From Bacteroidia bacterium (lineage in GTDB: Bacteria > Bacteroidota > Bacteroidia > Cytophagales > Cyclobacteriaceae), in NCBI GenBank assembly GCA_030430675.1, contig JAUIKU010000002.1:1-63789 (forward strand): DNA of 63,789 bases, written 5' to 3'. Numbering within the stretch: the stretch's first letter is position 1; every line of letters begins with the position of its first letter. A program made the position numbers and the translations under genes. Positions 23,929 to 44,001 of the stretch are shown here, in pieces. A model generated the notes under the pieces. The model saw only the letters and a program-made list of their open reading frames with translations, did not search any database and was not told where the DNA came from.

Positions 23929-26900
23929 ATGCTAAAGTGCCCACCTGTCGTATTCCAAATACTATCCCTATTCTTATTTCTGACCGTTGAGACAACTTGG
24001 TCACAGGGTCAGTTAGGACGGCCTTTTATTAACAACTACAGCTATCAGGACTACCCGGGCGGCCCTACCAACTGGTGGGCCATTGAGGGAGATGACGGAA
24101 TGATGTATTTCGCCAACGGCAATGGCATTATGGAATATGACGGGGTGAACTGGAAAATGATCGAAGTGGGTGGAAACGGCGGAGTGCGGTGCTTTGCCAA
24201 GGATGACCATGGCGTTATCCATGTGGGTGGCATTGGTGAGTTAGGTTATATAAGAGCCGATGAACGGGGAGAATGGAAATACGAATCCCTGGTGGATAAG
24301 ATTCCGGAGGAGCACAGGTTGTTTGGAGATGTATGGGAGGTTGACTTTTTCCAGGGTAAGATCATCTTCAGAACCGAGTTTAAACTGTACCTGTGGGATG
24401 GACAATCCATGCAGGTAATAACTACAGAAAACGCCTTTCATGTGGGAAAGATAGTGCATGATAAGTACTACGTGAGGTTGTGGGATGTGGGGCTATGCGT
24501 TATGGAGAATAATGAATTCAGGCTGGTGCCGGGAGGTGAGAAATTTGCTGACGAAAGAATATACGTCATCCTGCCCTATGATGAAGACCAGGTATTGATC
24601 GGGTGCCGAAACCTGGGGTTCTTTATATACGATGGTCAGGAATTCCGGCCATTTGTCACCGAGATAGACCATTTGATCAAGGAAACCATATACTTACCGG
24701 GACTTGCCCTTCCCAATGGCAGGTTTATTATCAACTCATTTAACGATGGGGCATTTTTGATCAACCGGCAAGGTAAGCTGCTTCAGAAATATACCACTGA
24801 AACGGGCATGCAAACCGGTAGTGTTGACTTTACATACCTCGATTCAAGAGGTGTACTGTGGATGCCATTGTTTAACGGGATTTCCTCGGTAAATCTCAAT
24901 TCCACCTTTACGGTAGTCGATACGGATATGGGCCTGGAGGACAATGTAGTGTATGCCACATACACCCACGGCAATATGTTGTATTTCAGTACTAACAACG
25001 GAATTTTTTATCTGGAAGATGGAGCAAATCATATTAATCAGGTCGAAGGTACAGCAGGTCAGGGAGGAGGATTTCTGGAAGCCAGGGGACGGCTATACAC
25101 AGGTACCGGCACCATGGGTGTTATTGAACTTACCGGCAAGTCATTCAAACAAGTAAGGAAAAGTGTAAACTATGATTTCAGGGCACGAAGGTTTGCTAAT
25201 TCAAAGGTGGACAGCAACAGGTTTTATGTAACGCATCAACAAGGACTGGCAAGTTTTTATTTTGATGCCGAGACCAACCAGTTCAAGGAAGAATCTAATA
25301 TGCCTATGATCACCGGGTCCGGTTATAACAATATGGTGGAGAATGAAAATGGTGACCTGTGGATTACCACTGATGCCAATGGCCAGATATATCTGCTTAA
25401 ACCCAATATTTCAGATGGGAAATTAGATTTGGCTGCATCTCAAATGGTTACTTATGATATGAGTAGTGGGTTATCCGATGCAGAAATTGACGTTTTTGAA
25501 ATTTGGGATTCGGTATATTTTTTCGCACTTGACGAAAAAACTTTTTTGTTTGACCCTGAGGAAGATCGGTTCATTGAAAAGAAATTCTTTTACCACCATT
25601 TGATTGACTGGGAAGGTGCATATGCGGAGCCGTATGAAGATCCGGATGGCAGGATATGGCTGGATGCCGGGACGGGAATAACGGTAATCAGCAGGAATGA
25701 AGATGGAAGTTATGATTATAATGAAGAAACCTTTAAGGAGCTGAAAAATAGACGTTTATGGTCTTTCAATGTGGAAAAAATGCAAGGAGACGGAGCGCAG
25801 GTTGTTTGGATATCCGGTCCGGATGGTGTAGTGCGTTACCAGGGAAAACTCGACCAACCATTTTCACCGGATTTTAACCTGCTGATCAGAAGCATCAGTG
25901 TAGCAGGTGACTCACTGGTGTTTGGCGGTACTGGTGATACACCTGCAGATTTTGAGATCAATTACCAACTGAACTCGGTGGCACTGGACTATGCAGCTCC
26001 GTTGTACATCAATCAAAGCGATGTGGAGTACAGTACTTACCTGATGGGTCTGGATTCCGACTGGTCGGATTGGAGTAAAACCACCTCCCGGGAGTATATA
26101 AACCTTCCTCCCGGGAAATACACCTTCCAGGCCCGGGCCCGTAACCTGGTGGGCAATGTAACTGATATAACCACCGCTTCATTTACCATAGTCCCCCCCT
26201 GGTACCGTACCTGGTGGGCTTATCTGGTATATGCGTTGGGCGCTGTCTTTCTGATGTATTCAGTGGTAAGAACCCGTACCAGGATATTGCTTAGACAACA
26301 AAAGGAGCTGGAGCAAAAGGTAGAGGAGCGTACCTCGGAGGTCAGGCAGCGACTGGATGAATTGGCCACGATCAATAAAGTGAGTACCGCGTTAACTGAA
26401 AAACTTGAGTTAAATGAGCTGATCAAGCTGGTGGGGGACCAGATGAAGCAATTGTTCAAATCGGACATCACCTTCCTGGCTCTTCTGGACACCGAAACCA
26501 ATATTGTAAACTTTCCATACCAGGATGGAGATAATATGGCCCCCCTGCAATACGGCGAAGGACTGACCTCCAAAATTATTGAGACAGGGCAACCCCTGTT
26601 GATAAACAAGGACAAAGAGATTGACCAGGAGTATTCCAGGTCGGGAATTGCACAAGTCGGAAAGAATGCGGCATCCTTTCTCGGAGTACCTATTCCGGTA
26701 GAAGACAAGGTCATCGGAGTACTCAGTGTACAGAGCACCAAATTCGAAAGCCGGTTTACCGAAGAAGACAAGGGTTTACTGACCACCATTGCCATCAACG
26801 TGGGTGTGGCGCTTCACAATGCCGAATTATTTGAGCAGGCCAAAGAGGCCAAGGCCAAAGCGGAAGATGCCAATGAAGCAAAGAGTGCGTTCCTTTCCAC

Positions 26901-28293
26901 GGTTAGCCATGAATTGAGAACACCTTTAACCTCGGTGCTGGGATTTGCCAAGATCATAAGAAAACGATTGGAGGATAAAATATTTCCGGCGGTTACCATA
27001 GATGACCAGAGAATTAAACGCACTATGAAACAGGTGGCGGAAAATCTCAACGTGGTGGTGGCGGAAGGGGAGCGCCTGACCAACCTGATCAATGATGTGC
27101 TGGATCTGGCTAAAATTGAGTCGGGCCGAATGGAATGGAATATGAAACCGATGTTCCTGCAGGACGTTATAGGACGGGCCATCTCGGGAACTGCTGCCCT
27201 TTTTGAGCAAAGGGATCTTCCTTTGAAAGACAAGGTGCCCCAGGACCTGCCCCTGGTAAATGGTGACCAGGACAAGCTGATACAAGTAGTGATAAATTTG
27301 CTGTCTAACGCGGTTAAATTTACTGAAAAGGGTAGTGTTACCATTGAGGCTTACCAGGATAAAAACCAGATCATAGTAGAAGTTCAGGATACCGGAATTG
27401 GCATTGCAGAGGAAGATAAACACAAGGTATTCGAGCGGTTCCGACAAGCAGGTGACACGCTGACCGATAAACCACAGGGCACCGGGTTAGGGCTCCCAAT
27501 ATGCCGGGAAATAATAGAGTATCACGGCGGAATCATCTGGATGAAAAGTGAGCCCGGGGTGGGTAGTACGTTTTTCTTTTCTTTGCCAGTGCTTGGAGAA
27601 GGTGTTGATAAACAGCCAATTGAGTTGAATAGAATTATTAAGACTTTAAAAAAGCAAATCAAACACTCATCCCTTAGCAAGGTAGAGAGCACGGCCACTA
27701 TTTTGGTAGTGGATGACGATACTCCAATCAGATCATTGCTGCGACAGGAACTTTCGGATGCCGGCTACCGGGTGCAGGAGGCAGCCAATGGCAAGGCAGC
27801 TTTGGACATGGTGAGACTGGAGAAACCGGATTTGATCATCCTGGACGTAATGATGCCCGAGATCAATGGATTTGATGTGGCCGCCGTTTTGAAGAATGAT
27901 CCAGCAACCATGGATATTCCAATCATCATTCTATCGATTGTTCAGGACAAAGAGCGAGGATACCGCATTGGGGTGGATAGGTACCTGACCAAGCCAATAG
28001 ATACCGAGAAGCTGTTTCACGAAGTAGATGTACTGTTGGAACAGGGGGTTTCCAAAAAGAAAGTGCTGGTGGTTGATGAAGACACCGGGGCTATTGCCAC
28101 TTTGTCGGATGTGCTTAAGGCCCGTGGTTATAAGGTACTGGAAGCCAACTCCGGAAACATTATGCAGAAAGCCACTGAGGTAAAGCCCGATATAATCATG
28201 TTGAATTCGGTCTACAATGGTGACAGGAAATTCATAGAGAACTTGAAGTTACAGAAGGGTATGGAGAATGTGATGTTCTTTGTATATGAATAG
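23929..28293 (+). CDS. Propeller hybrid histidine kinase with GAF domain and two receivers
   Basis: 1454 residues. After a signal peptide come two-component propeller repeats (about 30-660, for example GDLWITTDANGQIYLL) and a Y_Y_Y domain (about 680-755), which together form an extracytoplasmic sensor. A membrane segment (about 762-783) leads into a coiled coil, a GAF domain (about 825-965), HisKA with His994 (VSHELRTPLT), HATPase (VQDTGIGI, GTGLGLPI), a receiver with Asp1306 (LILDVMMPE) and a terminal pseudo-receiver in which Asn1426 replaces the phosphoacceptor Asp. Unlike Bacteroides HTCS proteins it has no AraC-type DNA-binding end. The downstream receiver and cyclase genes probably act as output. 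The stimulus is unknown, possibly a glycan. Confidence 0.93.
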   Translation: MLKCPPVVFQILSLFLFLTVETTWSQGQLGRPFINNYSYQDYPGGPTNWWAIEGDDGMMYFANGNGIMEYDGVNWKMIEVGGNGGVRCFAKDDHGVIHVGGIGELGYIRADERGEWKYESLVDKIPEEHRLFGDVWEVDFFQGKIIFRTEFKLYLWDGQSMQVITTENAFHVGKIVHDKYYVRLWDVGLCVMENNEFRLVPGGEKFADERIYVILPYDEDQVLIGCRNLGFFIYDGQEFRPFVTEIDHLIKETIYLPGLALPNGRFIINSFNDGAFLINRQGKLLQKYTTETGMQTGSVDFTYLDSRGVLWMPLFNGISSVNLNSTFTVVDTDMGLEDNVVYATYTHGNMLYFSTNNGIFYLEDGANHINQVEGTAGQGGGFLEARGRLYTGTGTMGVIELTGKSFKQVRKSVNYDFRARRFANSKVDSNRFYVTHQQGLASFYFDAETNQFKEESNMPMITGSGYNNMVENENGDLWITTDANGQIYLLKPNISDGKLDLAASQMVTYDMSSGLSDAEIDVFEIWDSVYFFALDEKTFLFDPEEDRFIEKKFFYHHLIDWEGAYAEPYEDPDGRIWLDAGTGITVISRNEDGSYDYNEETFKELKNRRLWSFNVEKMQGDGAQVVWISGPDGVVRYQGKLDQPFSPDFNLLIRSISVAGDSLVFGGTGDTPADFEINYQLNSVALDYAAPLYINQSDVEYSTYLMGLDSDWSDWSKTTSREYINLPPGKYTFQARARNLVGNVTDITTASFTIVPPWYRTWWAYLVYALGAVFLMYSVVRTRTRILLRQQKELEQKVEERTSEVRQRLDELATINKVSTALTEKLELNELIKLVGDQMKQLFKSDITFLALLDTETNIVNFPYQDGDNMAPLQYGEGLTSKIIETGQPLLINKDKEIDQEYSRSGIAQVGKNAASFLGVPIPVEDKVIGVLSVQSTKFESRFTEEDKGLLTTIAINVGVALHNAELFEQAKEAKAKAEDANEAKSAFLSTVSHELRTPLTSVLGFAKIIRKRLEDKIFPAVTIDDQRIKRTMKQVAENLNVVVAEGERLTNLINDVLDLAKIESGRMEWNMKPMFLQDVIGRAISGTAALFEQRDLPLKDKVPQDLPLVNGDQDKLIQVVINLLSNAVKFTEKGSVTIEAYQDKNQIIVEVQDTGIGIAEEDKHKVFERFRQAGDTLTDKPQGTGLGLPICREIIEYHGGIIWMKSEPGVGSTFFFSLPVLGEGVDKQPIELNRIIKTLKKQIKHSSLSKVESTATILVVDDDTPIRSLLRQELSDAGYRVQEAANGKAALDMVRLEKPDLIILDVMMPEINGFDVAAVLKNDPATMDIPIIILSIVQDKERGYRIGVDRYLTKPIDTEKLFHEVDVLLEQGVSKKKVLVVDEDTGAIATLSDVLKARGYKVLEANSGNIMQKATEVKPDIIMLNSVYNGDRKFIENLKLQKGMENVMFFVYE

Positions 28294-28376
28294 GTAACGG
28301 GCTAAGGGCCTAAGGGCGTGGAACCTAGAGATATTCGTAAATCATAACTCGTAATTATTAATTGAATAATAGCTGG

Positions 28377-28751
28377 ATGGATAAGAAAATTTTAATTGTG
28401 GATGATGAATCTCACATCCGAATGCTGATTGAACAAACCCTCGAGGACCTGGAAGATAATGGTGTGGAATTGTTGTTTGCGGAGAATGGCCAACAGGCAC
28501 TGGATTTGATCCAATCTGAAAAACCTAACCTGGTATTTCTGGATGTTATGATGCCTCAAATGAATGGGATGGAGGTTTGTTATAAGGTAAAAAAGGAGCT
28601 GTTATTGGATGAGGTATATATCATTTTGTTAACTGCCAAGGGGCAGGAGGTAGACCGTCAAAAAGGTTTGGAAATGGGTGCCAACAAGTATATGACCAAA
28701 CCATTCGACCCCGATGAAATGCTCGAAATAGCGGAAGAGGTTCTCAATTAG
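28377..28751 (+). CDS. Single-domain response regulator (CheY-like receiver)
   Basis: 124 residues from the ATG at 28377; a TTG five codons earlier is less likely. It is a complete receiver: acidic pair in VDDES, phosphoacceptor Asp55 (VFLDVMMPQMNG), switch Thr in LLTAKG and conserved Lys in KYMTKPFDP. There is no output domain, so it acts by protein-protein contact or as a phosphorelay shuttle. It lies 83 bases after the propeller hybrid kinase and 11 bases before the GAF-cyclase, all in one direction. A natural reading is that it carries phosphate from the kinase and modulates the cyclase. That link is inferred from gene order only. Confidence 0.93.
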   Translation: MDKKILIVDDESHIRMLIEQTLEDLEDNGVELLFAENGQQALDLIQSEKPNLVFLDVMMPQMNGMEVCYKVKKELLLDEVYIILLTAKGQEVDRQKGLEMGANKYMTKPFDPDEMLEIAEEVLN

Positions 28752-28762
28752 CAGGAGGAACC

Positions 28763-30454
28763 ATGTCAAATGTCAAAAGCCAAACTGCGCTGCGAAAAGC
28801 GCTTCGCCACGTACTTCAAAAAGATGCTGAATCGGTAACACTAATAAAGCAGCTTGCCGATAGACTCCAGCTGAATTTTAGTGTATTGGATTCCAACAGT
28901 ACTCTACTTTGGGGAGAAAATTTGGATTATGGCCGCAGCTATGAGCTATCGCAGCACGGGAATACCTTTGGTACTATATGGTCAGAATCCCTGGATGCCG
29001 AGCAGATAGGCCGTTTGATTGACCTATTGGTACGCAAAGAGCTTGAGAAAAAAAAGATCGGGAATGAAGTGCTGGGCCTCTATCGCGAGATCAATATGAT
29101 TTATGATCTCAGTGAACAAATATCGGAGACCATAGATGCCGGGTCAATTGCCCGGATTGCACTAAAAGAAGCCTCTCAGATTATTCATGCTACCCATGGG
29201 TTATTTCTGATGCTGGATGGCGATACCGTGGTTGAGATGGCATCTTTGGGTAATAACCCTCAGCGTCAGGAAAATATCAGCCGACAGAACAGACTGCTCA
29301 AGGAGTTGATCAACCGGGGGGTTTCCTCCATTGTTTCACCGGAAAGCATCAGCTCAAACCCGGCACTGAGCCATCTGAAAGCCGTGATGTACGCACCGCT
29401 GAAGGTGAAACACCGTACCCTGGGCGTTATTATGATGGGTCACGATCAATCCAGGGAGTTTACCGCAGCAGAATTGAAGCTGTTGACCACTATTGCGTTG
29501 CAGGCCGCAGCCGCCATAGAAAGTGCTCATTTATACCAGAAAGGGCTGCAGGAGGCCAGGGAAAGGGAAGAAGCCATCAGAAAGATACACCAGGTAAGTC
29601 AGAAGTTTGTTCCTTCGGAATTTCTCAAGTCTCTGGGTAAAGAAAAGTTAACCGAGGTTTCATTGGGGGATCTGGTGGAGCGTGAAGTAACGGTTTTACT
29701 GGCAGATATTCGGGGGTTTACCACCTTGTCAGAGAGCTTAAAACCCAAAGACAATTTTCTGTTTATCAACACATTCAACAAGCGCATGGGCCCGGTAATA
29801 CGCAGGCATGAGGGGTTTATTATACAGTATCTGGGTGATGGGTTTATGGCCCTGTTTCCATCGGGTTCCCAGGACGCCTTGAGGGCTTCCGTCGAAATGC
29901 ACCGGGAACTGGATCAGTATAACCGGGAGCGCCTGGAGAAGGGGCGAAAGCCCATTAGTATCGGAATTGGAATGCAGAATGGTAAACTGATTATGGGCAT
30001 CACCGGCGACTCCGAGCGTCTGGATGCTGCCATTATATCAGATACTGTAAATACTGCTGCCAGAGTGGAGGGGCTATCCAAACATTTTGGTGCCTCTATT
30101 TTGCTTACGGAGTTGTGCAAAAACAATCTCAGACATCCCCAGGAATTTGACTTTAGATTTCTGGGCCCGGTAGTGGTAAAAGGAAAACAGCAGCCTATTA
30201 ACCTTTTTGAGTGCTTCAATGGTGATGACAAGCCTCTTTTTCAGCACAAGAAGGATTCACTAGAGACGTTTAATCAGGGCATGGAACAGTATTTTAATAA
30301 GGAATTCGCCATGGCTGCTGTTACATTTCAACAGGTAGTAAAAATGAACCCCAATGACCATACTGCCAAATTATTCCTGAACCGGTCCGCTCATCTTATT
30401 ACCCAGGAAATCGGTGATGATTGGAAAGGTGTAGAAAGCATTGGAAACAAATAA
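28763..30454 (+). CDS. GAF-domain class III nucleotide cyclase with atypical base-selecting residues
   Basis: 563 residues, cytosolic, preceded by a strong Shine-Dalgarno (AGGAGG at 28753-28758). A small N-terminal region (1-100) and a GAF domain (about 115-265) precede a coiled-coil linker with VPSEFLKSLG and the cyclase domain (about 305-480). Metal ligands Asp315 (LLADIRGF) and Asp359 (YLGDGFMALF) and catalytic Asn430/Arg434 are present. The base-selecting positions are Gln355 and Ala423, not the Lys and Asp/Thr of adenylate cyclases nor the Glu/Cys of guanylate cyclases. The C-terminal 85 residues contain one TPR-like unit (FNKEFAMAAVTFQQVV). It is the last gene of the propeller-kinase operon. 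Product nucleotide is uncertain. Confidence 0.9.
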   Translation: MSNVKSQTALRKALRHVLQKDAESVTLIKQLADRLQLNFSVLDSNSTLLWGENLDYGRSYELSQHGNTFGTIWSESLDAEQIGRLIDLLVRKELEKKKIGNEVLGLYREINMIYDLSEQISETIDAGSIARIALKEASQIIHATHGLFLMLDGDTVVEMASLGNNPQRQENISRQNRLLKELINRGVSSIVSPESISSNPALSHLKAVMYAPLKVKHRTLGVIMMGHDQSREFTAAELKLLTTIALQAAAAIESAHLYQKGLQEAREREEAIRKIHQVSQKFVPSEFLKSLGKEKLTEVSLGDLVEREVTVLLADIRGFTTLSESLKPKDNFLFINTFNKRMGPVIRRHEGFIIQYLGDGFMALFPSGSQDALRASVEMHRELDQYNRERLEKGRKPISIGIGMQNGKLIMGITGDSERLDAAIISDTVNTAARVEGLSKHFGASILLTELCKNNLRHPQEFDFRFLGPVVVKGKQQPINLFECFNGDDKPLFQHKKDSLETFNQGMEQYFNKEFAMAAVTFQQVVKMNPNDHTAKLFLNRSAHLITQEIGDDWKGVESIGNK

Positions 30455-31588: not shown

Positions 31589-34500
31589 ATGGCCAGAGCT
31601 CAAAAATTTGGCACTTTCGGAGGAGTTTTTGTTCCCTCTGTACTTACCATTTTAGGTGTGATAATGTACCTGAGGCTGGGTTGGGTGGTTGGAAACTCAG
31701 GTCTTATCGGAACTATCGTCATTATCCTTATTGCCCATGTTATTTCGATAACCACCGGTTTGTCCGTTTCTTCAATTGCTACGGACAAAAAGGTCAAGGC
31801 GGGAGGCATCTATTACATGCTTTCACGAAGTCTTGGTTTACCTATTGGCGGCGCTATTGGGATAGCCCTGTTTGTGGCTACTGCACTTAGTATTGCCATG
31901 TATATCGTGGGTTTCGCAGAGAGTTTTAACAGCGTTATCGGTTTAAACTCCCTGGATATGGACGCACTGGAACGGGTGAACAACCTCCGAATCACCGGTA
32001 CCATCACGCTGATTGCGATCAGTAGTATCGCCATGGTAAGCACCTCCCTGGCTATTAAAACCCAATACTACATACTCGGTGCGATCTTTTTGTCTTTAGT
32101 TTCCATTTTTGCAGGGGGAATGTTCCTGGATCACGAGTTTGTTCCACTCAGTCGACCTATGTTTGCTACCGCCGGTGCAACTTCAATGGAAACAGTGTTT
32201 GCCATATTTTTTCCGGCGGTTACGGGATTTACCGCAGGTGTGGCCATGTCAGGAGATCTGAAGGATCCCAAGAAATCAATACCGGTAGGTACCATGGCAG
32301 CCATCGGGGTTGGGCTGGTAATTTACATTGCTCTGGCAATATTTCTTTCGGCAAATGTGGACGAACAGGTTTTGAGGGAAGATACCAATATACTGGCCCG
32401 CATCGCCTTGTTTTCAGCTTATGGAGCTCCTTTTTTGATGGCCGGTATTTGGGGGGCCACCCTGTCTTCGGCACTGGGTGGAATTCTGGGAGGTCCCAGG
32501 ATCCTGCAGGCCATGTCACTGGATAAGGTTACTCCAAGGATATTTGCCAGGGGAGCAGGGAAGTCCAACGAGCCAAGAAATGCTTTAATATTTGCCTTCG
32601 TGATCGCGGAAGCGGGCATTTTGATAGGAGAACTTGATTTGATTGCCCCCATTGTTTCCATGTTTTACCTTACCGCCTATGGGTTCATCAATCTTACTTG
32701 TGCTCTGGAGAGTTGGTCGGGCTCCGACTTTAGGCCTAGCTTCAATATTCCCAGAAGTATTTGCTGGATAGGGGCCATTGCCACTTTCGGGGTAATGTTC
32801 AAGCTGGACATGCTGGCCATGTTTGCCGCCTTTGTGGTGATCGGCCTTATATTTCTCTACTTAACCCGAAAGCAGATCAGTATGGGCTTTAGTGATGTGT
32901 GGCAGGGTGTATGGTCAGAAGTGGTGCGACTGGCCTTGTCGAGAATTAGCCAGGCAGAAACAGACAAGAGAAGCTGGCGCCCCAATATTATACTATTTAG
33001 CGGAAGTACCGACCGGCGGCCTCACCTGTTGGAATACGGTACCAGACTGGTTGGCAAGTTGGGGTTATTATCCAATTTTGACCTGGTGGAAGACCAACAC
33101 ACCAAAGTTTCATTTGCCAAAAGAGAACAGGTGGTCGAGGCCGGGACTGAAAGTAAAGGGGTATTTACCAGGCAGTACAGTTGTAGCGACCTCTATTCCG
33201 GAATAGAAAGAATTGCAGAAACTTATGGGTTTTCGGGTTTGGACCCCAATACTATTTTGATGGGTTGGGCCCGCTATACTGATCACCCCATAAGGTTTAG
33301 TCAGCTTATCCACAAATTTCAGCAGTTGGATTACAGTATGCTGATTATGGATTACGATCAACGGGTGGGCTTCGGTAAGAAGAGCAGAATAGACATATGG
33401 AGTCAAAACGGCGGGAGACATCTCACCTTTGCTCTCACAATATCGAGGTTTCTCAATACTTCGGATGACTGGCAGGACGCCCGGGTAAGGTTGAATATTC
33501 TGGCGGATACCAGCAGAGTGGACGATATGATTATCCATCAGCGGCTGGATCAGGTTCAGGAAGACCTGAGAATAAACTTTGAAGTAAGAATTGTCAATAC
33601 TGCTCTGGAGCAGCGATCATTTTATGAGATCGTACAGTTCGAATCTGCGGAGGCCGACCTGGTGTACCTGGAGCTTCCCGATCTGGAGGAAGGATCGGAG
33701 AAGGCATTCTTCGAAAAAACTGACCATCTTTGCAAAGAGATAGGTACGGTGATTCTGTATCAGGGTTCCAGGGAATTTGAAGCAATTGACCTGGGCATCC
33801 AGGCGCATTCACTGGAGACGCTGTCTGCGGAAGAAGCATCGGACCTCAATTATGCCTCGCTTCCCTCGGCCAAAATACCCGACTTACGACTACCTGTACA
33901 AACTCAAATGGCTCAATCCCTGGATGCCGTTGATAAGACTGCACAGAACCTGGTTCAGACCTATTACCAGGACTTTTTGATTCCCTATGCCAACAAGCAG
34001 GTCCATTTTATTCAGTCATTTCAGCAATTGACCAAAGAATTCTACCAGTCCTTTAATACCAATCATCAGAGCGGTGAAAATGAATTGATGAGGGTATTAG
34101 ATAAAAGGGAAAAGCAATTGCTTGAAACAGCATTGAGTTATTTTCAGGATTATCACTCCAATCATCTTACCAATCAGCAACAGAAACTGGCTGCCTCGGT
34201 AGAATATTTACAGGGAAGTATCAATGGGATAATTGACAAGAGCCCGCCATTTGTTGAGGTCGAATATTCAAAGGAAGCGCTGAGTTCACATCAGCTTCAT
34301 CAAATCAGCCTGTGGCAGCGTGTCAAATCAATGTTTGGCAGCAAAGCAGTGGTCTATCAACTGAATTATCAATTGCTGGTGCTGCTTCATTTTGGCTTTC
34401 ACTTGAAAAAATCTTTGGTGGAAATTCAGCGGCAAATCAATCAGCACAGTATTCAGTTCGGTAATGATTTAAGAAAAACTTTGCGCCGGATGATTGCCGG

Positions 34501-36757
34501 GATTCATTCCGTTAAAATGGAGCAGACATCGGAAACTGCCCTGGAAAAACTTGCTGAGGAAGATGCTCAAATTCAGCAAAGACTGTATGAACTGGAGTCC
34601 AAAACAGGTGGCCAAATAAACGCCTACCGGGATTATCTGCTCAATGATGGTATTAGTCGCTTACAATTGTTGTCGGAGGAAATGGACGACCTTTCAATCA
34701 ATAAAGTTATTGGTCAGGAAACCAGGTCCAGAAAAAGATGGGCGGTGCTGGACGATCAGTTTGATGAACTAGTTTCGGCCTGGAATTACAACCAGCCCCT
34801 CGATTTGAACGTCAGTGAATTGGAATTAAAGCTGCTGCTTATGCAGATAGAGCTGGGGAATTCGTTAGATCAGTTGCTGATCAAATTCAGGACGCTGCCA
34901 CAAAGAAAAGTAATTCAAAAAACCGAGCGACTTCTGGACACCCTGCAGCGTATGGTGAATCAAATTGACGGAGATAAAAATTTAAAACTTACCACTACCC
35001 ATGAACCAGCGGAGCTTTCGGAGTTGACTGAGACCGTGCGTGACTTTATTTCCCATACCAGGGAAATTGCCGAAGCACTACCGGATAAATTGGCTGTGCC
35101 CAATTTACAGGACCTGGACAGTGATAACTATGAAGAGGTGGAGGCGATTGAAATCAGCCCCCGTAATGTAGTAGTACACCTTATTCAATCCAATATAATT
35201 TCCCAGTTGGAAACGTATTCCGGGCAACTGCAAGCGGTATTGGCTAAAGCGGATCATACTATACTGGATGTCATGCAAGTGGTGAGGCTGGCATTGGACG
35301 ATTCAGGTTCAGAAGGTGAGATGCATGATGACGGAGAAAAGTTGCGAGCCACTATTGAAGGTGAGATAGGTCGTCTAAAAGAAAGCGTAGAGCAGGTTAG
35401 AGGGCTGATAGACCGCCAGAATTCCAGTTTAAGTGAGAACTATAATGGGGTTCAGCAGAATTTGAATGCCCGCTCAATAATCAAATCCGCCCTGGAATTC
35501 GACTACTACCTGATGACCCAAAAGCAGACCCAGGTCATCAACAAGTTCGGTATAGCCACCAGAAAAATCAAGAATCAAATACAGGCCGGTCTAACCAGTT
35601 TGTATTATCGCAGGAGTGAAGGTTTGATTGCGGCTAAAAAATTCAAACACCAGCAGAAAGAGATTGGCAATTGGACCACCCGTATTTCAAAAATGGTGAT
35701 GGCGGTCAGTCCCAAAAACCAGGTGATGGAGGATTTGCCATTTTACTATAAACAGCTGTTTCTGCGTCCCCATAGTGTATCTAAAGACCTGTGGTTGGAA
35801 CGTGAGGATGACAGGACGGAAGCAGAGGAAAGTGTTTCATTCTACCGCAGGGTAAGGTCCGGAGGCTTGTTGATTTTAGGGCCCCCTTATTCCGGTAAGA
35901 CCTATTTGTCGGAATACATCGCCAACAACCATTTTAAGCCGGAGCATTGTTTTACAATTAACCCTCCGGAAGAAGGAAGTATCGCCCTGGTAGAGTTTCA
36001 CCGAGCTATCAAAAAAGGCCTGAAGTATTATGGAGAAATTCAATCGGCATTCGATCAGTTAACAGACGGAGCGGTACTGATTTTCAATGATGCTGAGAAA
36101 TGGTGGGAGAGGAGTGAACACGGGTTTGCGTTACTGGAGAGTCTGATGGGCATGATAGAGACTTACAGTCATAAAGCTTTGTTTATTGTTAATATGAATT
36201 GGCATAGTTTCCAGCTGATCAATGATATTGGTGCAATTGAGGAGAACTTCTTTAAGGTGATAAAGACCCAGCCGTTCAATGCTGAAGAACTCAAGCAGGT
36301 AATACTTTCGCGGCATAGAACCAGCAGATTGAAATTCAGACTGGAAGGCAAACATGAAGATACCATGAGCGAGTGGAAGTTGGCCAAGCTGTTTACCAGG
36401 TATTTTGACCTGTCCAACGGTAATGTGGGTGTGGCGCTGCAGCAATGGGTCTGCAATATTGAAAGTATTACTTCACAGGGTGAAATTGCCATAAAGAATC
36501 CCAGACGACCGGACCAGGAAGCCTTAAAGAGCCTGCATAACGACCGGGTAATTATACTTATACAGTTTGTACTGCACCGAAAGCTCAGTACCGAACGCCT
36601 GTCGCGGATTATGCAATCTGACATGGAGGAAATGGTTAAGCAACTTGAAGTTTTGCATCGCCTGGATATTCTCCGGGAGAAAAACGGCATCTGGGAGATT
36701 AACCGATATTTGAGACCTTTGTTGGTAGCATCTTTTGAAGAAGATCTTTTACTATAA
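31589..36757 (+). CDS. SLC12-like cation-chloride cotransporter fused to helical region and AAA+/winged-helix ATPase
   Basis: 1722 residues. Residues 1-430 are an APC-superfamily permease with about 12 helices; the start FGGVFVPSVLTILGVIMYLRLGW is cation-chloride-cotransporter-like. Residues 460-750 match the SLC12 cytosolic C-terminal domain (SWRPNIILFSG at 463, DIWSQNGGRHLTFAL near 603). Residues 760-1410 are a long, mostly helical, Gln/Leu-rich region not recognised. Residues 1420-1640 form a P-loop ATPase: Walker A GPPYSGKT (1431-1438), Walker B-like VLIFND (1496-1501), and a sensor-2-like NVGVAL near 1612. Residues 1650-1715 resemble a winged helix. Bacterial SLC12 relatives are normally permease-sized or permease plus C-domain, so an ATPase fusion is remarkable. 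Two MscS-type genes follow after 9 and 64 bases. Transported ions and ATPase role are unknown. Confidence 0.85.
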   Translation: MARAQKFGTFGGVFVPSVLTILGVIMYLRLGWVVGNSGLIGTIVIILIAHVISITTGLSVSSIATDKKVKAGGIYYMLSRSLGLPIGGAIGIALFVATALSIAMYIVGFAESFNSVIGLNSLDMDALERVNNLRITGTITLIAISSIAMVSTSLAIKTQYYILGAIFLSLVSIFAGGMFLDHEFVPLSRPMFATAGATSMETVFAIFFPAVTGFTAGVAMSGDLKDPKKSIPVGTMAAIGVGLVIYIALAIFLSANVDEQVLREDTNILARIALFSAYGAPFLMAGIWGATLSSALGGILGGPRILQAMSLDKVTPRIFARGAGKSNEPRNALIFAFVIAEAGILIGELDLIAPIVSMFYLTAYGFINLTCALESWSGSDFRPSFNIPRSICWIGAIATFGVMFKLDMLAMFAAFVVIGLIFLYLTRKQISMGFSDVWQGVWSEVVRLALSRISQAETDKRSWRPNIILFSGSTDRRPHLLEYGTRLVGKLGLLSNFDLVEDQHTKVSFAKREQVVEAGTESKGVFTRQYSCSDLYSGIERIAETYGFSGLDPNTILMGWARYTDHPIRFSQLIHKFQQLDYSMLIMDYDQRVGFGKKSRIDIWSQNGGRHLTFALTISRFLNTSDDWQDARVRLNILADTSRVDDMIIHQRLDQVQEDLRINFEVRIVNTALEQRSFYEIVQFESAEADLVYLELPDLEEGSEKAFFEKTDHLCKEIGTVILYQGSREFEAIDLGIQAHSLETLSAEEASDLNYASLPSAKIPDLRLPVQTQMAQSLDAVDKTAQNLVQTYYQDFLIPYANKQVHFIQSFQQLTKEFYQSFNTNHQSGENELMRVLDKREKQLLETALSYFQDYHSNHLTNQQQKLAASVEYLQGSINGIIDKSPPFVEVEYSKEALSSHQLHQISLWQRVKSMFGSKAVVYQLNYQLLVLLHFGFHLKKSLVEIQRQINQHSIQFGNDLRKTLRRMIAGIHSVKMEQTSETALEKLAEEDAQIQQRLYELESKTGGQINAYRDYLLNDGISRLQLLSEEMDDLSINKVIGQETRSRKRWAVLDDQFDELVSAWNYNQPLDLNVSELELKLLLMQIELGNSLDQLLIKFRTLPQRKVIQKTERLLDTLQRMVNQIDGDKNLKLTTTHEPAELSELTETVRDFISHTREIAEALPDKLAVPNLQDLDSDNYEEVEAIEISPRNVVVHLIQSNIISQLETYSGQLQAVLAKADHTILDVMQVVRLALDDSGSEGEMHDDGEKLRATIEGEIGRLKESVEQVRGLIDRQNSSLSENYNGVQQNLNARSIIKSALEFDYYLMTQKQTQVINKFGIATRKIKNQIQAGLTSLYYRRSEGLIAAKKFKHQQKEIGNWTTRISKMVMAVSPKNQVMEDLPFYYKQLFLRPHSVSKDLWLEREDDRTEAEESVSFYRRVRSGGLLILGPPYSGKTYLSEYIANNHFKPEHCFTINPPEEGSIALVEFHRAIKKGLKYYGEIQSAFDQLTDGAVLIFNDAEKWWERSEHGFALLESLMGMIETYSHKALFIVNMNWHSFQLINDIGAIEENFFKVIKTQPFNAEELKQVILSRHRTSRLKFRLEGKHEDTMSEWKLAKLFTRYFDLSNGNVGVALQQWVCNIESITSQGEIAIKNPRRPDQEALKSLHNDRVIILIQFVLHRKLSTERLSRIMQSDMEEMVKQLEVLHRLDILREKNGIWEINRYLRPLLVASFEEDLLL

Positions 36758-36766
36758 TCGTTATTT

Positions 36767-37516
36767 ATGAAGGAACTGGCGGCATTGGAGGTGGCGATAG
36801 TGAAACTGGTAATAGTTTCACTGATTCTGTTTGGATTTCTTTGGCTGGTAAAGCTGGCTATTCGCAACACACCTGTTAGGAAGTCCGTGCGGTCCAGAAT
36901 TGACCGGATACTGCCGTCTATTGAAGGTATCGTGTGGTTTGGCTTTATGCTCTGGAGTGCCGGTCAATTAATCCAAAATGAAGTTTGGAACGCCATTGGA
37001 GTGCTCATTATCATTTTGTTGTTGTTGGTGCTTTTGTTCTGGTTGGTGATTCGGGATTACGTAGCAGGGATTATCCTAAAAACAGACGGTTCTATTAAGA
37101 CCAACGACTGGATAAGGGTAAGGGATATCGAAGGAAAGATTAAAGAATTGGGAGGCCGTACCATGATAGTCCGTACCGAATCGGGAGAGACGGTAAATAT
37201 TCCCTACAGTACCATTTCAGGAGAGATAAGCGCCAAACCCAACCCAGCTGAAGAAATAATCAATCACAGCTTTGAAATAAAGTTATCCAAGGCTACTGAT
37301 GCCGAAACGGCTATCACTCAAATTAAAAAGAGTATTCTCAATGCACCCTGGTCATCGGTAAAGAAGAACCCGGAAATAAGACTAATCAATGATAATTCCT
37401 CTTATTATCACTTTGAGATAAATCTGTTCTCTCTGCGTACGGTATACTTCCAGAAAATAAAAGAGTACCTGATCCACAGACTGGCGACGAGTGGATATGA
37501 AAAAGTTGAGTTGTAA
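36767..37516 (+). CDS. Divergent MscS-family mechanosensitive channel protein
   Basis: 249 residues. Hydrophobic segments lie at about 10-30, 48-68 and 73-96, the last leading into VIRDYVAGIIL. The soluble part (about 100-249) resembles the MscS beta and alpha/beta domains: KTNDWIRVRDIEGKIKELG, then a strand VNIPYSTI equivalent to the usual IPN motif. The pore helix lacks the Gly/Ala-packed pattern typical of MscS TM3, so gating or conduction may differ, or it may be a channel partner. It starts 9 bases after the SLC12-ATPase gene and is almost certainly co-transcribed. Assignment to the MscS family is by the soluble-domain motifs; conduction is unproven. Confidence 0.7.
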   Translation: MKELAALEVAIVKLVIVSLILFGFLWLVKLAIRNTPVRKSVRSRIDRILPSIEGIVWFGFMLWSAGQLIQNEVWNAIGVLIIILLLLVLLFWLVIRDYVAGIILKTDGSIKTNDWIRVRDIEGKIKELGGRTMIVRTESGETVNIPYSTISGEISAKPNPAEEIINHSFEIKLSKATDAETAITQIKKSILNAPWSSVKKNPEIRLINDNSSYYHFEINLFSLRTVYFQKIKEYLIHRLATSGYEKVEL

Positions 37517-37580: not shown

Positions 37581-38450
37581 ATGGACTTCAAATCAGAAAT
37601 TCTGGCCACCGTAGAAGAATACTGGCAACTGTTGGCCCAATGGACCCCCAGACTGGCCATGGGTATTATTGTTTTGCTGATCTTTTGGTTTCTGTCTGTT
37701 CAGGCAAAGAGATTGATTGGTATCAGGTTGAAGACCAAAATGGATGATCCGCTCTTGGCCAGATTTTTATCGAATATGTCCAAATGGATATTTCTTATTT
37801 TGGGTATTGCCCTTTCAATGAAGGTAATGGGGCTAGGTGATATCGCCGGAGGGTTGGTGGCCGGTGCCGGAATTTCAGCCTTTATTATCGGATTTGCCTT
37901 TAAGGATATTGGTGAAAACTTTCTGGCAGGCATATTGCTGGCCTTCAAGCGACCATTTAGGGTTGGGGATACCATAGAAATTGAAAAAACTATTGGCAAT
38001 GTGGTTGCCCTGGATATGCGCACTACGCAGGTGAAGACATTCGATGGAAAGGATGTGTTCATTCCCAACAGTACACTTATTAAAAACCACCTGATCAATT
38101 ATACCATCGACGGATTTCTGCGGCAGGATTTCCTTATTTCTGTGGATTATGAAACTGACCTAACCAAAGCAATAGGCATTATACTGGAAACGCTTGATGA
38201 TGTTTCCGGTATACTGCAGGGTGAGAAGAAACCTACTGTGGTGGTATCCAGCCTTGACAGCAGTTCCATAGCACTGCAGGTGTTTTACTGGCTGGATACA
38301 TTCGACAAGTCTATTTCAGGATTGAAGGTTAAAACTGAAGCCATTCAGGGTAGTCTGAGAGCACTTGAAGGGGAAAACATCTATATGCCAGGGGATATTT
38401 ATGAACTAAAGAACTATCATCAGGATAAACTGCGTATAGAAAGCGAGTAA
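37581..38450 (+). CDS. MscS-family mechanosensitive ion channel
   Basis: 289 residues, close to E. coli MscS in length. Three helices lie at about 20-42, 65-83 and 88-112; the third has the classical packed pore sequence GGLVAGAGISAFIIGFAFKDI. The beta domain follows with RPFRVGDTIEIEKTIGNV and the KDVFIPNSTLIKN motif, then the alpha/beta domain. The channel should open on membrane tension and release solutes on osmotic downshock. It follows the divergent MscS-type gene by 64 bases, and both lie downstream of the SLC12-ATPase, suggesting one osmotic-response transcript. The spacer has no recognisable terminator. The gene ends 24 bases before the convergent peroxidase. Confidence 0.93.
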   Translation: MDFKSEILATVEEYWQLLAQWTPRLAMGIIVLLIFWFLSVQAKRLIGIRLKTKMDDPLLARFLSNMSKWIFLILGIALSMKVMGLGDIAGGLVAGAGISAFIIGFAFKDIGENFLAGILLAFKRPFRVGDTIEIEKTIGNVVALDMRTTQVKTFDGKDVFIPNSTLIKNHLINYTIDGFLRQDFLISVDYETDLTKAIGIILETLDDVSGILQGEKKPTVVVSSLDSSSIALQVFYWLDTFDKSISGLKVKTEAIQGSLRALEGENIYMPGDIYELKNYHQDKLRIESE

Positions 38451-41037: not shown

Positions 41038-42381
41038 CTAGGTTACCCCCAGCATAGACCCCAATGCGGTTGCTAGTCCCAGGAAGCTCATAAAGCCCAC
41101 GATATCAGTCACCGTGGTAAGGATAATGGATGAAGACTGCGCGGGATCCTGACCAAACGATTTCAGCAAGATTGGAATTACTGCTCCGGAAAAGCCCGCT
41201 ATCACCATTGAAAATACCATTGATACGGCGATTACCAGGGACAAAGCATAGGAGTCCGCCCAGAAATAAACAATGACTGCGGTAGTCAGGGCCACCGCCA
41301 CTCCGTTTAAAAAGCCCACCGTAACTTCTTTTCGGGCTACCTTTATCCATTGGCCGATCCGTATTTCGCGCAATGCCAGGCCTCTCATGGTTACTGCCAG
41401 TGCCTGAGATCCGGTATTACCGGATTGTCCTGCCACTACTGGCAAAAATACCGCCAGTACCGTAATGCGAGCAATGGTTTCTTCGAAAAGGCCTACTACC
41501 GAAGCAGCCAGAAAAGCGGTAGCAAGATTTATCTCCAGCCAGGGCAGGCGCTTTTTTACGGCAAATCCCACTTTGGAAAGGGCACGTTCTTCGCGGCCGG
41601 CTCCAAACAATGCCTGAATATCCTCGGTAGCGTCTTCCTGGGCGGCTTTGACCAGCGTGTTGTTCCTGATTATACCCAGTAGTTTCTGGTCAAGATCCAA
41701 TACCGGGAGATTATAAAGCTTGTTTTTGTTTTGTAGTTCCACAACTTCCTCCATTGAAGCCATGACATGGATTCCCAAAGTTGGTTCAATAAGCTTATCC
41801 AGGGTTTGATGTGGATCTGAGATAGCTACCACCTCCAGTGGTGTCCGGCCCAGTAATTTCCCCTGATCGTCTACCACGTAAATGTTGACCATTCTCTGAT
41901 CCGTCAGGGTCCTTAGTTTTTCCAATACTTCATGCACAGTATCTGCTGGGTGAAATGAAATGATCCTGGTATCCATTAAAAAACCAGCACAATTTTCAGG
42001 ATAGGTCAGCAGTTGTCTTATTTCTTTCGCCCGCTTTTCCGGTAACAGGCTCAATTTCCTGTCGATCATTGAACTTTTCAACCGCGACAACATGATGGCA
42101 CCGGTGTAGGGATCAATAGCGGGAAACAATTGTTTAAAGCGCTCCTGGTCCAAATGTTCTATGGCCTGAGAAGCGATGTCTCCTTTCAGCCGTAACAGGA
42201 TCTCCCGGGATAATTCCAGGGGAAGGTTTTGCAGGTAGTACAACAACTCTTCAATGGATGCGCTATTAAGCAGATCAACCGCCTCGCCGGGAAATTTGCG
42301 AATATAATCTTCAACCAGCTGTTGTTTTATATCAGGTGTTTCCAAGATCAGTGTATTTGAAGTGATTATAGTTTTATTCAT
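41038..42381 (-). CDS. mgtE: Magnesium transporter MgtE
   Basis: 447 residues in the MgtE order: an N-terminal helical Mg2+-sensing domain (about 25-125, MgtE_N), paired CBS domains (about 130-255), a plug helix (residues near 265-280) and five membrane helices (about 285-447). The pore signatures are intact: FLPVVAGQSGNTGSQALAV and, near the C-terminus, ILTTVTDIVGF, whose Asp corresponds to the pore Mg2+-binding acidic residue. It admits Mg2+ when cytosolic Mg2+ is low. Its start overlaps the end of the preceding soluble MgtE-like gene by 8 bases, so translation is coupled, and that gene in turn follows an MscS-type gene by 2 bases. Confidence 0.93.
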   Translation of the reverse strand: MNKTIITSNTLILETPDIKQQLVEDYIRKFPGEAVDLLNSASIEELLYYLQNLPLELSREILLRLKGDIASQAIEHLDQERFKQLFPAIDPYTGAIMLSRLKSSMIDRKLSLLPEKRAKEIRQLLTYPENCAGFLMDTRIISFHPADTVHEVLEKLRTLTDQRMVNIYVVDDQGKLLGRTPLEVVAISDPHQTLDKLIEPTLGIHVMASMEEVVELQNKNKLYNLPVLDLDQKLLGIIRNNTLVKAAQEDATEDIQALFGAGREERALSKVGFAVKKRLPWLEINLATAFLAASVVGLFEETIARITVLAVFLPVVAGQSGNTGSQALAVTMRGLALREIRIGQWIKVARKEVTVGFLNGVAVALTTAVIVYFWADSYALSLVIAVSMVFSMVIAGFSGAVIPILLKSFGQDPAQSSSIILTTVTDIVGFMSFLGLATALGSMLGVT

Positions 42382-43183
42382 CAGTCGATCTGAACAGGCT
42401 GGTCAGACCGATCTGATACAATTCCGCTAAAGCACCACTAGCCTTCCAGGCCTGGCGTAGGGAACTTTTTCCAGTTGTTTTTATTTCCAGAATTAGCGCA
42501 CTGTTGATGGCACCAAGGAATTGTCCCTGTGAATCCACTACGGGTATTTGACTGCTGTCAGGCCAACTTCTTCCTTCAAGCAAATTTTCAGATATTCTGG
42601 TGTCTGCCAGAAGACTGGGTGGCGGAGGTTTCATAATAGCTGCAACCCTGGTTCTGCTATCGCTAGTGGCAATGAGGTCCTGCATAGAAAGATATCCTTT
42701 CAGTATTCTTTCATTATCCAGTACCGGGACGTAATTGCCCAGGGACTGAGTACAGGTTTTTACCCGCTCCAGGGCCTCTGATGCCATCAAATGGTGGTTA
42801 AGGGTGAAAATGGCCGGATCGATGTAGGCGCCGATGGTGTCTTTGGGAAAGCTCAATGCACTTCGCATCTCCATTATCTTGTCGGAATCGGTAGTTTGCA
42901 ACAACCTTTCCCGGCTTTCCTGGTCCATGGGTCGAAGTATGGCTGCCGCAATATTTACCGGAAGCGCATTCATTATTTTGGATGCTGTTTCCACATCTAG
43001 TTTTTTGAGTAAATGACCGGATTGAAAAACGTCCATTAATGAGAACAATCTGGAGGTAATATGTGCCGGCAATTGAACAGCTAGCCGGATGATTTCGTCT
43101 TCGGTACTTTTTTCCACCAGACCGACCGCTTCCCTGGTATGGTTAATTACAAAGTTTTCCAGCAGCTTATCTTCACTTTGCAT
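42374..43183 (-). CDS. Soluble MgtE-like regulatory protein (MgtE_N plus CBS pair, no channel)
   Basis: 269 residues, no membrane segment. Residues about 15-120 resemble the MgtE N-terminal superhelical domain (LPAHITSRLFSLMD, HLLKKLDVETASKIMNALP), followed by a CBS-like pair (about 130-250; SLGNYVPVLDNERILKGYLSM and SQIPVVDSQGQFLGAIN). The channel half is entirely missing and the gene is not broken, since it ends in a stop that overlaps the mgtE start. The design suggests a stand-alone sensor that pairs with the cytosolic domains of MgtE or with the MscS protein encoded just upstream (2-base gap). A role as regulatory subunit is an inference; a decayed paralogue is the alternative. Confidence 0.82.
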   Translation of the reverse strand: MQSEDKLLENFVINHTREAVGLVEKSTEDEIIRLAVQLPAHITSRLFSLMDVFQSGHLLKKLDVETASKIMNALPVNIAAAILRPMDQESRERLLQTTDSDKIMEMRSALSFPKDTIGAYIDPAIFTLNHHLMASEALERVKTCTQSLGNYVPVLDNERILKGYLSMQDLIATSDSRTRVAAIMKPPPPSLLADTRISENLLEGRSWPDSSQIPVVDSQGQFLGAINSALILEIKTTGKSSLRQAWKASGALAELYQIGLTSLFRSTDE

Positions 43184-43185
43184 GA

Positions 43186-44001
43186 CTATTGATCTTTCAG
43201 CAATTCAGATTTTTCTTCATTGAAATTCTTGGCCGGTACCGTAACGATACCAGTCCCGGTTTTTATATGTACTTCCGTGGCAGTGATTTTAACAATTGTT
43301 CCCTCAATATTTCCGATTCGCACCGGATCTCCTTCCCGATATGACTTTTGCAGGTAGAAGGACCCTAAGATATTGCTGACAGAGGTGCTGGCACCAAGAC
43401 CAAACGCCAGTGCTGCCCCAAACAGCAATGCGGCAATGATAATGGTAACCAGGTTGGTAAGAAATAATATATCGATACCAACTTGATTAATTGCGATCAC
43501 AGAAGCTACGAACATAATCACAAACTGCACCAGTTTTCTCACATGGTCTCCCTTGGGGATCCCGGCTTTTATTATACTGGAGCTCATCAAATCTCCTACC
43601 AGCCGTCCAATAATAATGCCTGCAAAAATAATTATGATGGCCGCTAATATATTGGGGAGGTAACCCAGCAAGGCATTGAACCAGGTGGTTAAAATAGACA
43701 GCCCCAGAAGTTGAGTGATCATCGCTAGTGCCAGCAATATTATTATCCAGAATATGGTATTGGCGATTATCCTGGCAGTTCCGTTAAGGTCAACCTTTAA
43801 CAGGCGATTCTGCAACCTGGAGTTGACCTGGCGATCGAGATAGCGGATAAACCGGGTTACCAGATTTCTGGCAACAACCGCTAATATCCACCCCGCCAGG
43901 GCTATTACCAACCCCACTACCAATTTTGGAAAGATATCAACGGACCCGGCGATCAACTGCCGGGTTAACTCTTGAAATTGCTCTGTCAGGGAACTGTTCA
44001 T
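43186..44001 (-). CDS. MscS-type ion channel family protein (CmpX/TM-helix type)
   Basis: 271 residues. Hydrophobic helices at about 25-45, 78-100, 107-128 and 143-200 include duplicated Gly-rich TM-helix repeats, and the pore-like helix reads FGAALAFGLGASTSVSNILGS. The short beta domain has YREGDPVRIGNIEGTIVKIT and VTVPAKNF. The large C-terminal alpha/beta domain of canonical MscS is missing, as in CmpX-type small channels. It is first in a three-gene unit with the soluble MgtE-like gene (2 bases away) and mgtE, and diverges from rimK across 210 bases. It probably responds to membrane tension or ionic stress; the coupling to Mg2+ uptake is suggested by gene order. Confidence 0.85.
   Translation of the reverse strand: MNSSLTEQFQELTRQLIAGSVDIFPKLVVGLVIALAGWILAVVARNLVTRFIRYLDRQVNSRLQNRLLKVDLNGTARIIANTIFWIIILLALAMITQLLGLSILTTWFNALLGYLPNILAAIIIIFAGIIIGRLVGDLMSSSIIKAGIPKGDHVRKLVQFVIMFVASVIAINQVGIDILFLTNLVTIIIAALLFGAALAFGLGASTSVSNILGSFYLQKSYREGDPVRIGNIEGTIVKITATEVHIKTGTGIVTVPAKNFNEEKSELLKDQ

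Follow-up and report, generated by a model that had tools for sequence, protein, structure and literature searches.

The window analyzed here, a stretch of 63,789 nucleotides from a member of the Cyclobacteriaceae (Bacteroidia bacterium, GenBank assembly GCA_030430675.1, contig JAUIKU010000002.1, positions 1–63,789 of the forward strand), contains on its forward strand, at 31589–36757, a gene that joins an SLC12-type carrier to a long helical region, an AAA+ ATPase and a winged helix. It is followed at 36767–37516 (+) by a gene for a conserved MscS-fold protein of 249 amino acids (aa), referred to below as the partner.

The fused gene is a single open reading frame (ORF) of 1722 codons without internal stop, as a preliminary description of this DNA had stated. 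The permease domain takes up residues 1–430 (31589–32878), and the SLC12 cytosolic C-terminal domain follows at residues ~431–759 (32879–33865). The helical region was divided, based on an AlphaFold2 model, into a first half of long helices with a small beta insertion (residues 769–1042, 33893–34714) and a second half (residues 1043–1304, 34715–35500), with both halves also supported by profile comparison. The AAA+ core, delimited by the model and its fold matches, is located at residues 1382–1641 (35732–36511) and contains a Walker A motif, GPPYSGKT, at residues 1431–1438 (35879–35902), with Lys1437, and a Walker B motif, VLIFND, at residues 1496–1501 (36074–36091); both motifs were found at exactly the residues given in the preliminary description. 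The winged helix named there is likewise present in the AlphaFold2 model, at residues 1643–1718 (36515–36742). All of these features are on the forward strand.

The SLC12-type carrier

The Pfam family AA_permease covers residues 12–428 of the carrier (E 2.4e-48), and the NCBIfam K-Cl cotransporter model TIGR00930 covers residues 3–676 with an E-value of 6.5e-123 and 411.8 bits, which is below the model cut-off of 953.4. Sequence matches in the PDB were KCC and NKCC chains, the best being KCC4 (E 9e-82), and the homology to KCC4 extends through the cytosolic C-terminal domain to residue 674. The earlier assignment of an SLC12 permease followed by the SLC12 cytosolic domain is thus confirmed.

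Positions of the ion sites were taken from the definitions for NKCC1 and KCC2 in PMC7889885. Among the 54 fused relatives of more than 1600 aa, the positions of Tyr105 (K+ site) and of Ser293 and Ser294 (Na+ site) are each conserved in 53, and that of Ala290 in all 54, while Thr and Leu replace Asn298 and Trp300 of NKCC1 in most. Since the K+- and Na+-site positions are kept, the carrier is, judged from its sequence, probably a working Na+/K+/Cl- or K+/Cl- symporter. The permease, the cytosolic C-terminal domain, the K+-site Tyr and the Na+-site Ser-Ser pair are shared with the SLC12 cotransporters (KCC/NKCC and the prokaryotic MaCCC), from which the window protein differs by ~960 further residues, comprising the helical region and the AAA+ ATPase, and by the MscS-fold partner encoded next to it. 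We know of no SLC12/CCC member with an ATPase domain. A separate SLC12 gene of 745 aa without the extra part is present in the same genome.

The helical region and the AAA+ ATPase

When residues 760–1722 were searched alone, no Pfam family scored above its cut-off, the best being AAA (PF00004) with 16.7 bits, or 14.9 bits for the whole protein, against a cut-off of 21.2. NCBIfam gave nothing above cut-off, PHROGs gave weak matches (best E 0.018) and the PDB searched by sequence gave one match (E 0.93), so this part of the protein, described as partly unrecognised at the outset, was assigned to no family by the libraries searched. PADLOC returned weak matches to mad8 (E 0.00099) and Cas4 (E 0.0013) for the same residues, and nothing up to E 0.01 for a stand-alone form of the region or for the MscS-fold partner; with matches as weak as these, an anti-phage defence system was set aside as improbable.

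The AlphaFold2 model of residues 760–1722 (59 sequences) has a mean pLDDT of 85.6 and a pTM of 0.54, and its structural match lists are dominated by the ATPase domain. The best structural match was ORC2 from Aeropyrum (Z 15.9, rmsd 5.3 over 324 residues, 14% identity), which spans model residues 623–963 and thereby includes the winged helix; NSF D2 was tied with it in Z (15.2, 209 core residues) without the winged helix. In Foldseek the top match was RuvB (E 6e-8), with ORC/Cdc6 chains and Pab2304 within the first 20. In the predicted structure, residues 1382–1722 are thus an AAA+ ATPase followed by a winged helix. The winged helix, together with a Pfam AAA_22 match above cut-off in the relative L237, is consistent with a place on the ORC/Cdc6-STAND side of the AAA+ proteins, and the earlier suggestion that the ATPase is closer to ORC/Cdc6- or STAND-type proteins fits these matches, with the tie to NSF D2 in mind. 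A sensor-2-like stretch had also been proposed; its location fits, but it has a Gly (in GNVGVAL, invariant in seven of seven fused rows) at the position of the sensor-2 Arg that is expected in AAA+ proteins and is not kept in STAND proteins.

The ~600 residues that precede the ATPase consist mostly of long helices and form two mutually similar halves, an internal duplication that was detected by comparing the profiles of the two halves (probability 94, E 1e-7 as a single comparison, 154 columns). The core fold, the Walker A and B motifs and the C-terminal winged helix are shared with the ORC/Cdc6, RuvB, TnsC and STAND groups. The protein described here differs from these by its 600-residue duplicated N-terminal helical region, by having a carrier and not DNA as its partner, and by the Gly in place of the sensor-2 Arg.

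Distribution of the module

The helical region and ATPase together make up a widespread unit, hereafter the module, which occurs alone, fused to SLC12 carriers and fused to Na+/H+ antiporters, and which is therefore not peculiar to the carrier in the window. Fused and stand-alone modules are homologous along their length (profile comparison probability 100, E 6.8e-45 as a single comparison, 920 columns).

After removal of duplicates we obtained 181 distinct module genes, 77 of them SLC12-fused. Both ends of 54 SLC12-fused genes lie inside the sequence examined; 52 of these are single ORFs of 1638–1779 aa and two are split (L025 and L177). In a third split relative, L192, which was counted as unfused, carrier and module are 51 bases apart in one frame. 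We rejected L192 as an ancestral split form; its near-copy L208 is fused and both of its ORFs are in the same frame, and it therefore looks like a broken fused gene.

The fusion was found in Bacteroidota, Ignavibacteria, Calditrichia, Marinimicrobia and Kapaibacteria. It is present in Agaribacillus aureus BMA12, Fulvivirga marina 29W222, Thermonema rossianum DSM 10300 and Imperialibacter sp. EC-SDR9, whose genomes are not titled metagenome assemblies, and in the single-contig genomes G032, G144, G665 and G938. This recurrence, in strains with names as well as in genomes of a single contig, rules out an assembly chimera. Module matches were obtained in 15 of 59 sampled relatives; in the samples of higher ranks the figures were 49 of 148 genomes (family), 29 of 291 (order), 25 of 345 (class) and 60 of 296 (phylum), these being overlapping samples, some with weak matches in their lists. 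A pattern scan of one genome per species (84,980 species) gave 123 pattern matches that correspond to 63 loci, all titled Bacteroidota (under various names), Ignavibacteria, Calditrichia, Marinimicrobia or Kapaibacteria; the pattern was built from the fused type, and other module types may escape it.

The Walker A Lys is near-universal in the carrier-fused forms, where it was observed in 73 of 77 SLC12-fused and in all four antiporter-fused genes. It is also present in all eight unfused genes of the type designated A2, in nine of 12 genes of the short type, in eight of nine cut A2 genes and in none of five cut A1 genes. The short-type class ("800-type") of 12 consists of 10 genes of 749–808 aa and two fragments of other forms (L123 and L124). 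In the A1-type unfused class, which includes four pieces of less than 440 aa and four genes of more than 1100 aa, 29 of 66 have the Lys and 37 show none, one of these being a gap. A first sample, in which 11 of 11 stand-alone modules were without the Walker A Lys, had suggested a general rule, which does not hold in the wider set.

Further forms of the module were observed. A 1120-residue form without fused carrier occurs in Flavobacteriales (L183:8770–12141, L170:6579–9941, L108, L109 and L114); no MscS neighbor was seen for it in L183, L108 and L114, and the sequences of L170 and L109 end shortly after the gene. Modules with some 300–550 extra N-terminal residues were seen at L242:5062–9459, L235:3160–7782 and L236:6909–10796. 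The extension in L242, which adjoins TrkA and TrkH, looks by eye like many membrane helices, and Pfam gave no carrier family in L235 and L236.

Fusion to an antiporter and stand-alone settings

In L237, L239, L240 and L241 the carrier joined to this module is a Na+/H+ exchanger domain. In L237 the Pfam family Na_H_Exchanger was matched with E 3.7e-21 and AAA_22 with 32.5 bits (cut-off 27); the best NCBIfam match of the antiporter fusion was a CPA2 antiporter model (E 4e-9), below cut-off. As one ORF of 1475–1501 residues the antiporter fusion occurs in nine of 79 genomes of the family of L237, in all nine with an MscS gene after it, and L241 is an additional case. In the four loci with long flanks (L237 and L239–L241), the gene order after the fusion is MscS, TrkH, TrkA. 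Immediately upstream of the antiporter-ATPase fusion (L237, L239–L241 and L260–L266) there is a gene of 414–432 aa that, in some loci, weakly resembles the antiporter domain.

In an unrooted tree of the ATPase (96 rows), the antiporter fusions form one clade (support 100/100) on the A1 side and are separated from the SLC12 fusions by a branch with support 100/99. Their positions on opposite sides of this branch show that fusion to SLC12 and to the antiporter were two separate events.

The genome of the window also encodes a stand-alone module of 1010 aa, followed by an MscS gene with a one-base overlap. It belongs to a cluster (L022:7412–17037) with the order TrkA, TrkH, antiporter, ATPase, MscS, Zn protease, RimK. 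The part from TrkA to MscS recurs at L033, L034, L039 and L040, from four other genomes of the genus; Zn protease and RimK continue the cluster at L034 and L040, and RimK without the protease does so at L033. In all six long-flanked loci of the short module type (about 750–810 aa), the next two genes are a small one and an antiporter gene; the small gene was recognised as MscS in four of the six, and Pfam found no MscS domain in L221, one of the other two. One genome, G001, contains fused and stand-alone copies and in addition a third copy of the short type (L224:5233–8341), followed by an MscS gene and an antiporter.

Linkage to MscS-family genes

Adjacency was scored when an MscS gene was located within 250 bases on the same strand, with an overlap of less than 200 bases. 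By this rule, 151 of the 181 module genes have an adjacent recognised MscS gene and five more have a short ORF directly downstream; as four of the 151 MscS neighbors are also short, the final count is 147 with a full MscS gene and nine with a short ORF. Seven of the 181 end at a contig or locus edge. An MscS gene that extends 226 bases into the called end of L242 fell outside this rule, and L242 was scored as having no neighbor. Linkage was observed in 63 plus four short of 77 SLC12-fused genes, 62 of 66 A1-type unfused genes (five upstream), all four antiporter-fused genes, five of eight A2-type unfused genes, 10 plus one short of 14 cut genes and seven of 12 short-type genes (two of the 12 being fragments); of the 10 genes of 749–808 aa, seven are linked. 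Many of the module–MscS gene pairs overlap by one or four bases. Since the genome of the window (4.96 Mb) has just nine MscS-beta genes, adjacency by chance would be rare, and the earlier proposal that the ATPase goes with MscS-family genes is well borne out. The linkage is consistent with a regulator of ion or volume balance.

The gene at 36767–37516 (+) matches the Pfam family MS_channel_2nd (E 4e-12). In the AlphaFold2 model (pLDDT 90.5) the partner has three N-terminal helices, a beta domain and a C-terminal alpha/beta domain, and its best fold match in Foldseek is MscS (6pwn, E 4e-13), aligned along its length. Behind it follows an ordinary MscS-type channel gene of 289 aa at 37581–38450 (+; Pfam E 3e-21), with a Gly+Ala fraction of 0.41 in its pore helix. 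Such a second MscS gene after the partner was found in only two of 46 SLC12-fused loci with enough flank and was rejected as a part of the system. The fusion and the first partner recur in other genomes, but the pair of MscS neighbors, whose recurrence the preliminary description had named as support for a real system, mostly does not. A regulator of "two channels encoded next" is not borne out for the first neighbor either, which is without the pore-helix pattern.

Loss of the pore-helix pattern in the partner

The partner shares the fold of MscS channels along its whole length, with a helix in the place of the MscS pore helix at residues 72–107 (36980–37087, +), as placed with the AlphaFold2 model. 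The fraction was scored on 22 pore-helix residues of full-length partners. It is 0.09 in the window partner, against 0.32–0.41 in four other MscS genes of the same genome. Partners of SLC12-fused modules have a mean of 0.108 (n=61, maximum 0.23) and those of antiporter-fused modules a mean of 0.091 (n=4), compared with 0.305 (n=62, minimum 0.18) for partners of A1-type unfused modules; the difference between the SLC12-fused and A1-type unfused groups has a Mann-Whitney p of 1e-21 with relatedness ignored. Partners of the short type have a fraction of 0.18 (n=7), and those of cut genes 0.23 (A2, n=3) and 0.28 (A1, n=5).

Directly behind modules we identified 11 ORFs of 97–142 aa, nine of which match a profile of the C-terminal MscS domain (E 6e-5 or better) that was built from 61 full-length partners over window partner residues 165–249. 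None of the nine matches the membrane part of MscS, and their most hydrophobic 19-residue stretches score at most 1.22. Of the decoys, 158 further ORFs in this size range, four matched with E <0.01 (L046, L171, L047 and L048), all of them directly behind fused genes and three of them in copies of loci already counted; two decoys near E 0.01, L037 and L252, are pieces of MscS genes. At these nine loci, therefore, the cytosolic MscS domain has been kept and the pore has not. The partners of carrier-fused modules thus differ from MscS channels in having no Gly/Ala pore pattern, and nine partners are cut down to the soluble C-terminal domain. With the pattern lost and this domain alone remaining in nine relatives, the sequence of the window partner suggests that it is probably not a channel.

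Other genes in the window

Upstream of the fused gene, at 23929–30454, translations read by eye indicate a large hybrid sensor kinase that carries response-regulator domains, another response regulator encoded on its own, and a gene resembling a cyclase. Downstream, at 41038–44001 (-), an MgtE gene and a second gene with MgtE_N and CBS domains alone are located beside a third MscS-type gene. Three of the nine MscS-beta genes of the genome fall within the window.

Proposed working and alternative explanations

The domains of the fused protein, the two carrier fusions, the linkage to MscS, the conserved Walker A Lys of the carrier-fused forms and the lost pore pattern of the partner are best accommodated, in our opinion, if the gene represents one version of a system for transporter control in which an AAA+ module and an MscS-fold partner are tied to carriers of monovalent ions, a reading to which we give somewhat better than even chances. 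The MscS-derived partner, as a membrane ring or as the cytosolic domain alone, would read the osmotic state of the membrane or cytosol and set the nucleotide state of an AAA+ ring, and the long helices would relay that state to the cytosolic side of the carrier to turn ion flux on or off. ATP would then act as a switch and not as the source of energy for transport. In stand-alone systems the output may be the MscS channel, while in fused systems the carrier would be the output and MscS would be retained as a subunit. A switch and sensor of this kind explains why the MscS partner is constant while the carrier changes, why Trk and antiporter genes are neighbors, and why the pore helix has been lost. 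We infer, in accordance with this scheme, a physical complex with ring assembly, sensing of tension or crowding, gating, ATP hydrolysis and a direction of control from partner to carrier.

Several observations weigh against this interpretation. The partners of A2-type unfused modules are also Gly/Ala-poor (mean 0.19, n=5), so that loss of the pore-helix pattern is not tied to carrier fusion alone but tracks the A2 lineage. Near L111 and L115 (= L232 and L233), two of the five loci, there is an antiporter gene on the opposite strand, and a third is L192, the locus resembling a broken fused gene. The partner of the cut A2-type gene L141 is Gly/Ala-rich (0.41). The carrier-fused rows share ancestry, and the pattern therefore has the support of only about two independent events; the antiporter fusions, on the A1 side, are the one contrast that lineage does not explain. 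Loss of Gly and Ala does not prove that the partner cannot conduct. In addition, 18 of the 181 module genes have no recognised MscS neighbor despite the presence of flank, including the 1120-aa Flavobacteriales form (L108 and L114), and the tested ion-site positions are intact, so that the carrier could function without the module. Finally, only 29 of the 66 unfused A1-type modules have the Walker A Lys, so that not all forms need to hydrolyze ATP.

Remodeling of partner assemblies is common among AAA+ proteins of this fold, and the module could be an assembly or remodeling factor whose ATP is spent on building, inserting or taking apart MscS-type rings with the attached carrier, and not on gating flux. 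The structural neighbors RuvB, NSF D2 and TnsC, which act on partners, and a linkage to MscS that is tighter than that to any single carrier would agree with such a role, but the permanent fusion to a carrier and the one-to-one pairing of genes favor a stable subunit, and 37 of 66 A1-type unfused genes (one a gap) are without the Walker A Lys; we regard this explanation as unlikely. That the module regulates its MscS partner only, with the fused carrier as a localising passenger, is in keeping with MscS as the most constant neighbor and with the channel-like pore helix kept by the MscS proteins paired with A1-type unfused modules, a combination that, on the unrooted tree, may well be the ancestral state. 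In the window, however, the partner is without the pore pattern, and nine relatives are without a membrane part, which leaves no obvious channel to be regulated and makes this reading improbable.

Covalent fusion to two different secondary carriers, with Walker A intact in nearly all fused forms, could also be taken to mean that ATP hydrolysis powers the carrier, as a hybrid primary-active transporter derived from a secondary one. We consider this very improbable, as the K+- and Na+-site positions of a coupled symporter are kept in 53 of the 54 fused carriers examined, suggesting that ion gradients still drive transport, and as the ATPase is nearest to AAA+ proteins that act as switches or remodelers and is placed at the end of a long helical arm. 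A fusion without meaning, born by chance or in assembly, or else an effector of stress response or defence, is hardly credible: the window's genome, assembled in 368 contigs, may be of metagenomic origin, and PADLOC gave its two weak matches, but the same fusion in named strains and single-contig genomes contradicts both chance and a chimera. Compared with the preliminary description, the transporter-control reading retains the recurrent fusion, the type of the AAA+ ATPase and the association with MscS, and departs from it in that the ATPase is not peculiar to the carrier and that the two genes encoded next are probably not two channels of the system.

Relation to known systems and significance

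TrkH/TrkA and KtrB/KtrA are nucleotide-gated systems for K+ uptake, and Trk genes adjoin several module genes. The proposed system would resemble them in its working, with a cytosolic nucleotide-binding ring that gates a membrane protein for monovalent cations; RCK rings, however, are not known to use a P-loop AAA+ ATPase for nucleotide binding. Each part is of a familiar kind, but we could assign the combination to no known system. Among the papers listed by searches of an open-access library, judged from titles and the beginnings of abstracts, none describes such a system, and it may have been described elsewhere. A further suggestion, which we put forward tentatively and at somewhat less than even odds, is that these genes represent a new class of ion-transporter control in which AAA+ switch, MscS-derived sensor and secondary carrier make up a single complex. 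An ATPase–MscS pair would first have run a real channel, and a fused carrier (SLC12 or Na+/H+ antiporter) would then twice have become the output, with MscS kept as a non-conducting sensor or scaffold.

The known means of controlling secondary carriers are phosphorylation, nucleotide-binding RCK or CBS domains, and expression. If the proposed working is correct, an SLC12 or antiporter carrier with its own P-loop AAA+ ATPase would introduce a new principle of control, and the MscS fold may be able to act as sensor or scaffold even when no pore is present, so that sensing and conduction would be separable in MscS-like proteins. Bacteroidota and neighboring phyla carry the system widely, named strains among them, and it lends itself to genetic tests. 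According to PMC8280820, the C-terminal domain of KCC1 binds ATP/ADP, and the bacterial protein may help to explain such binding by the cytosolic domain of the human cotransporters.

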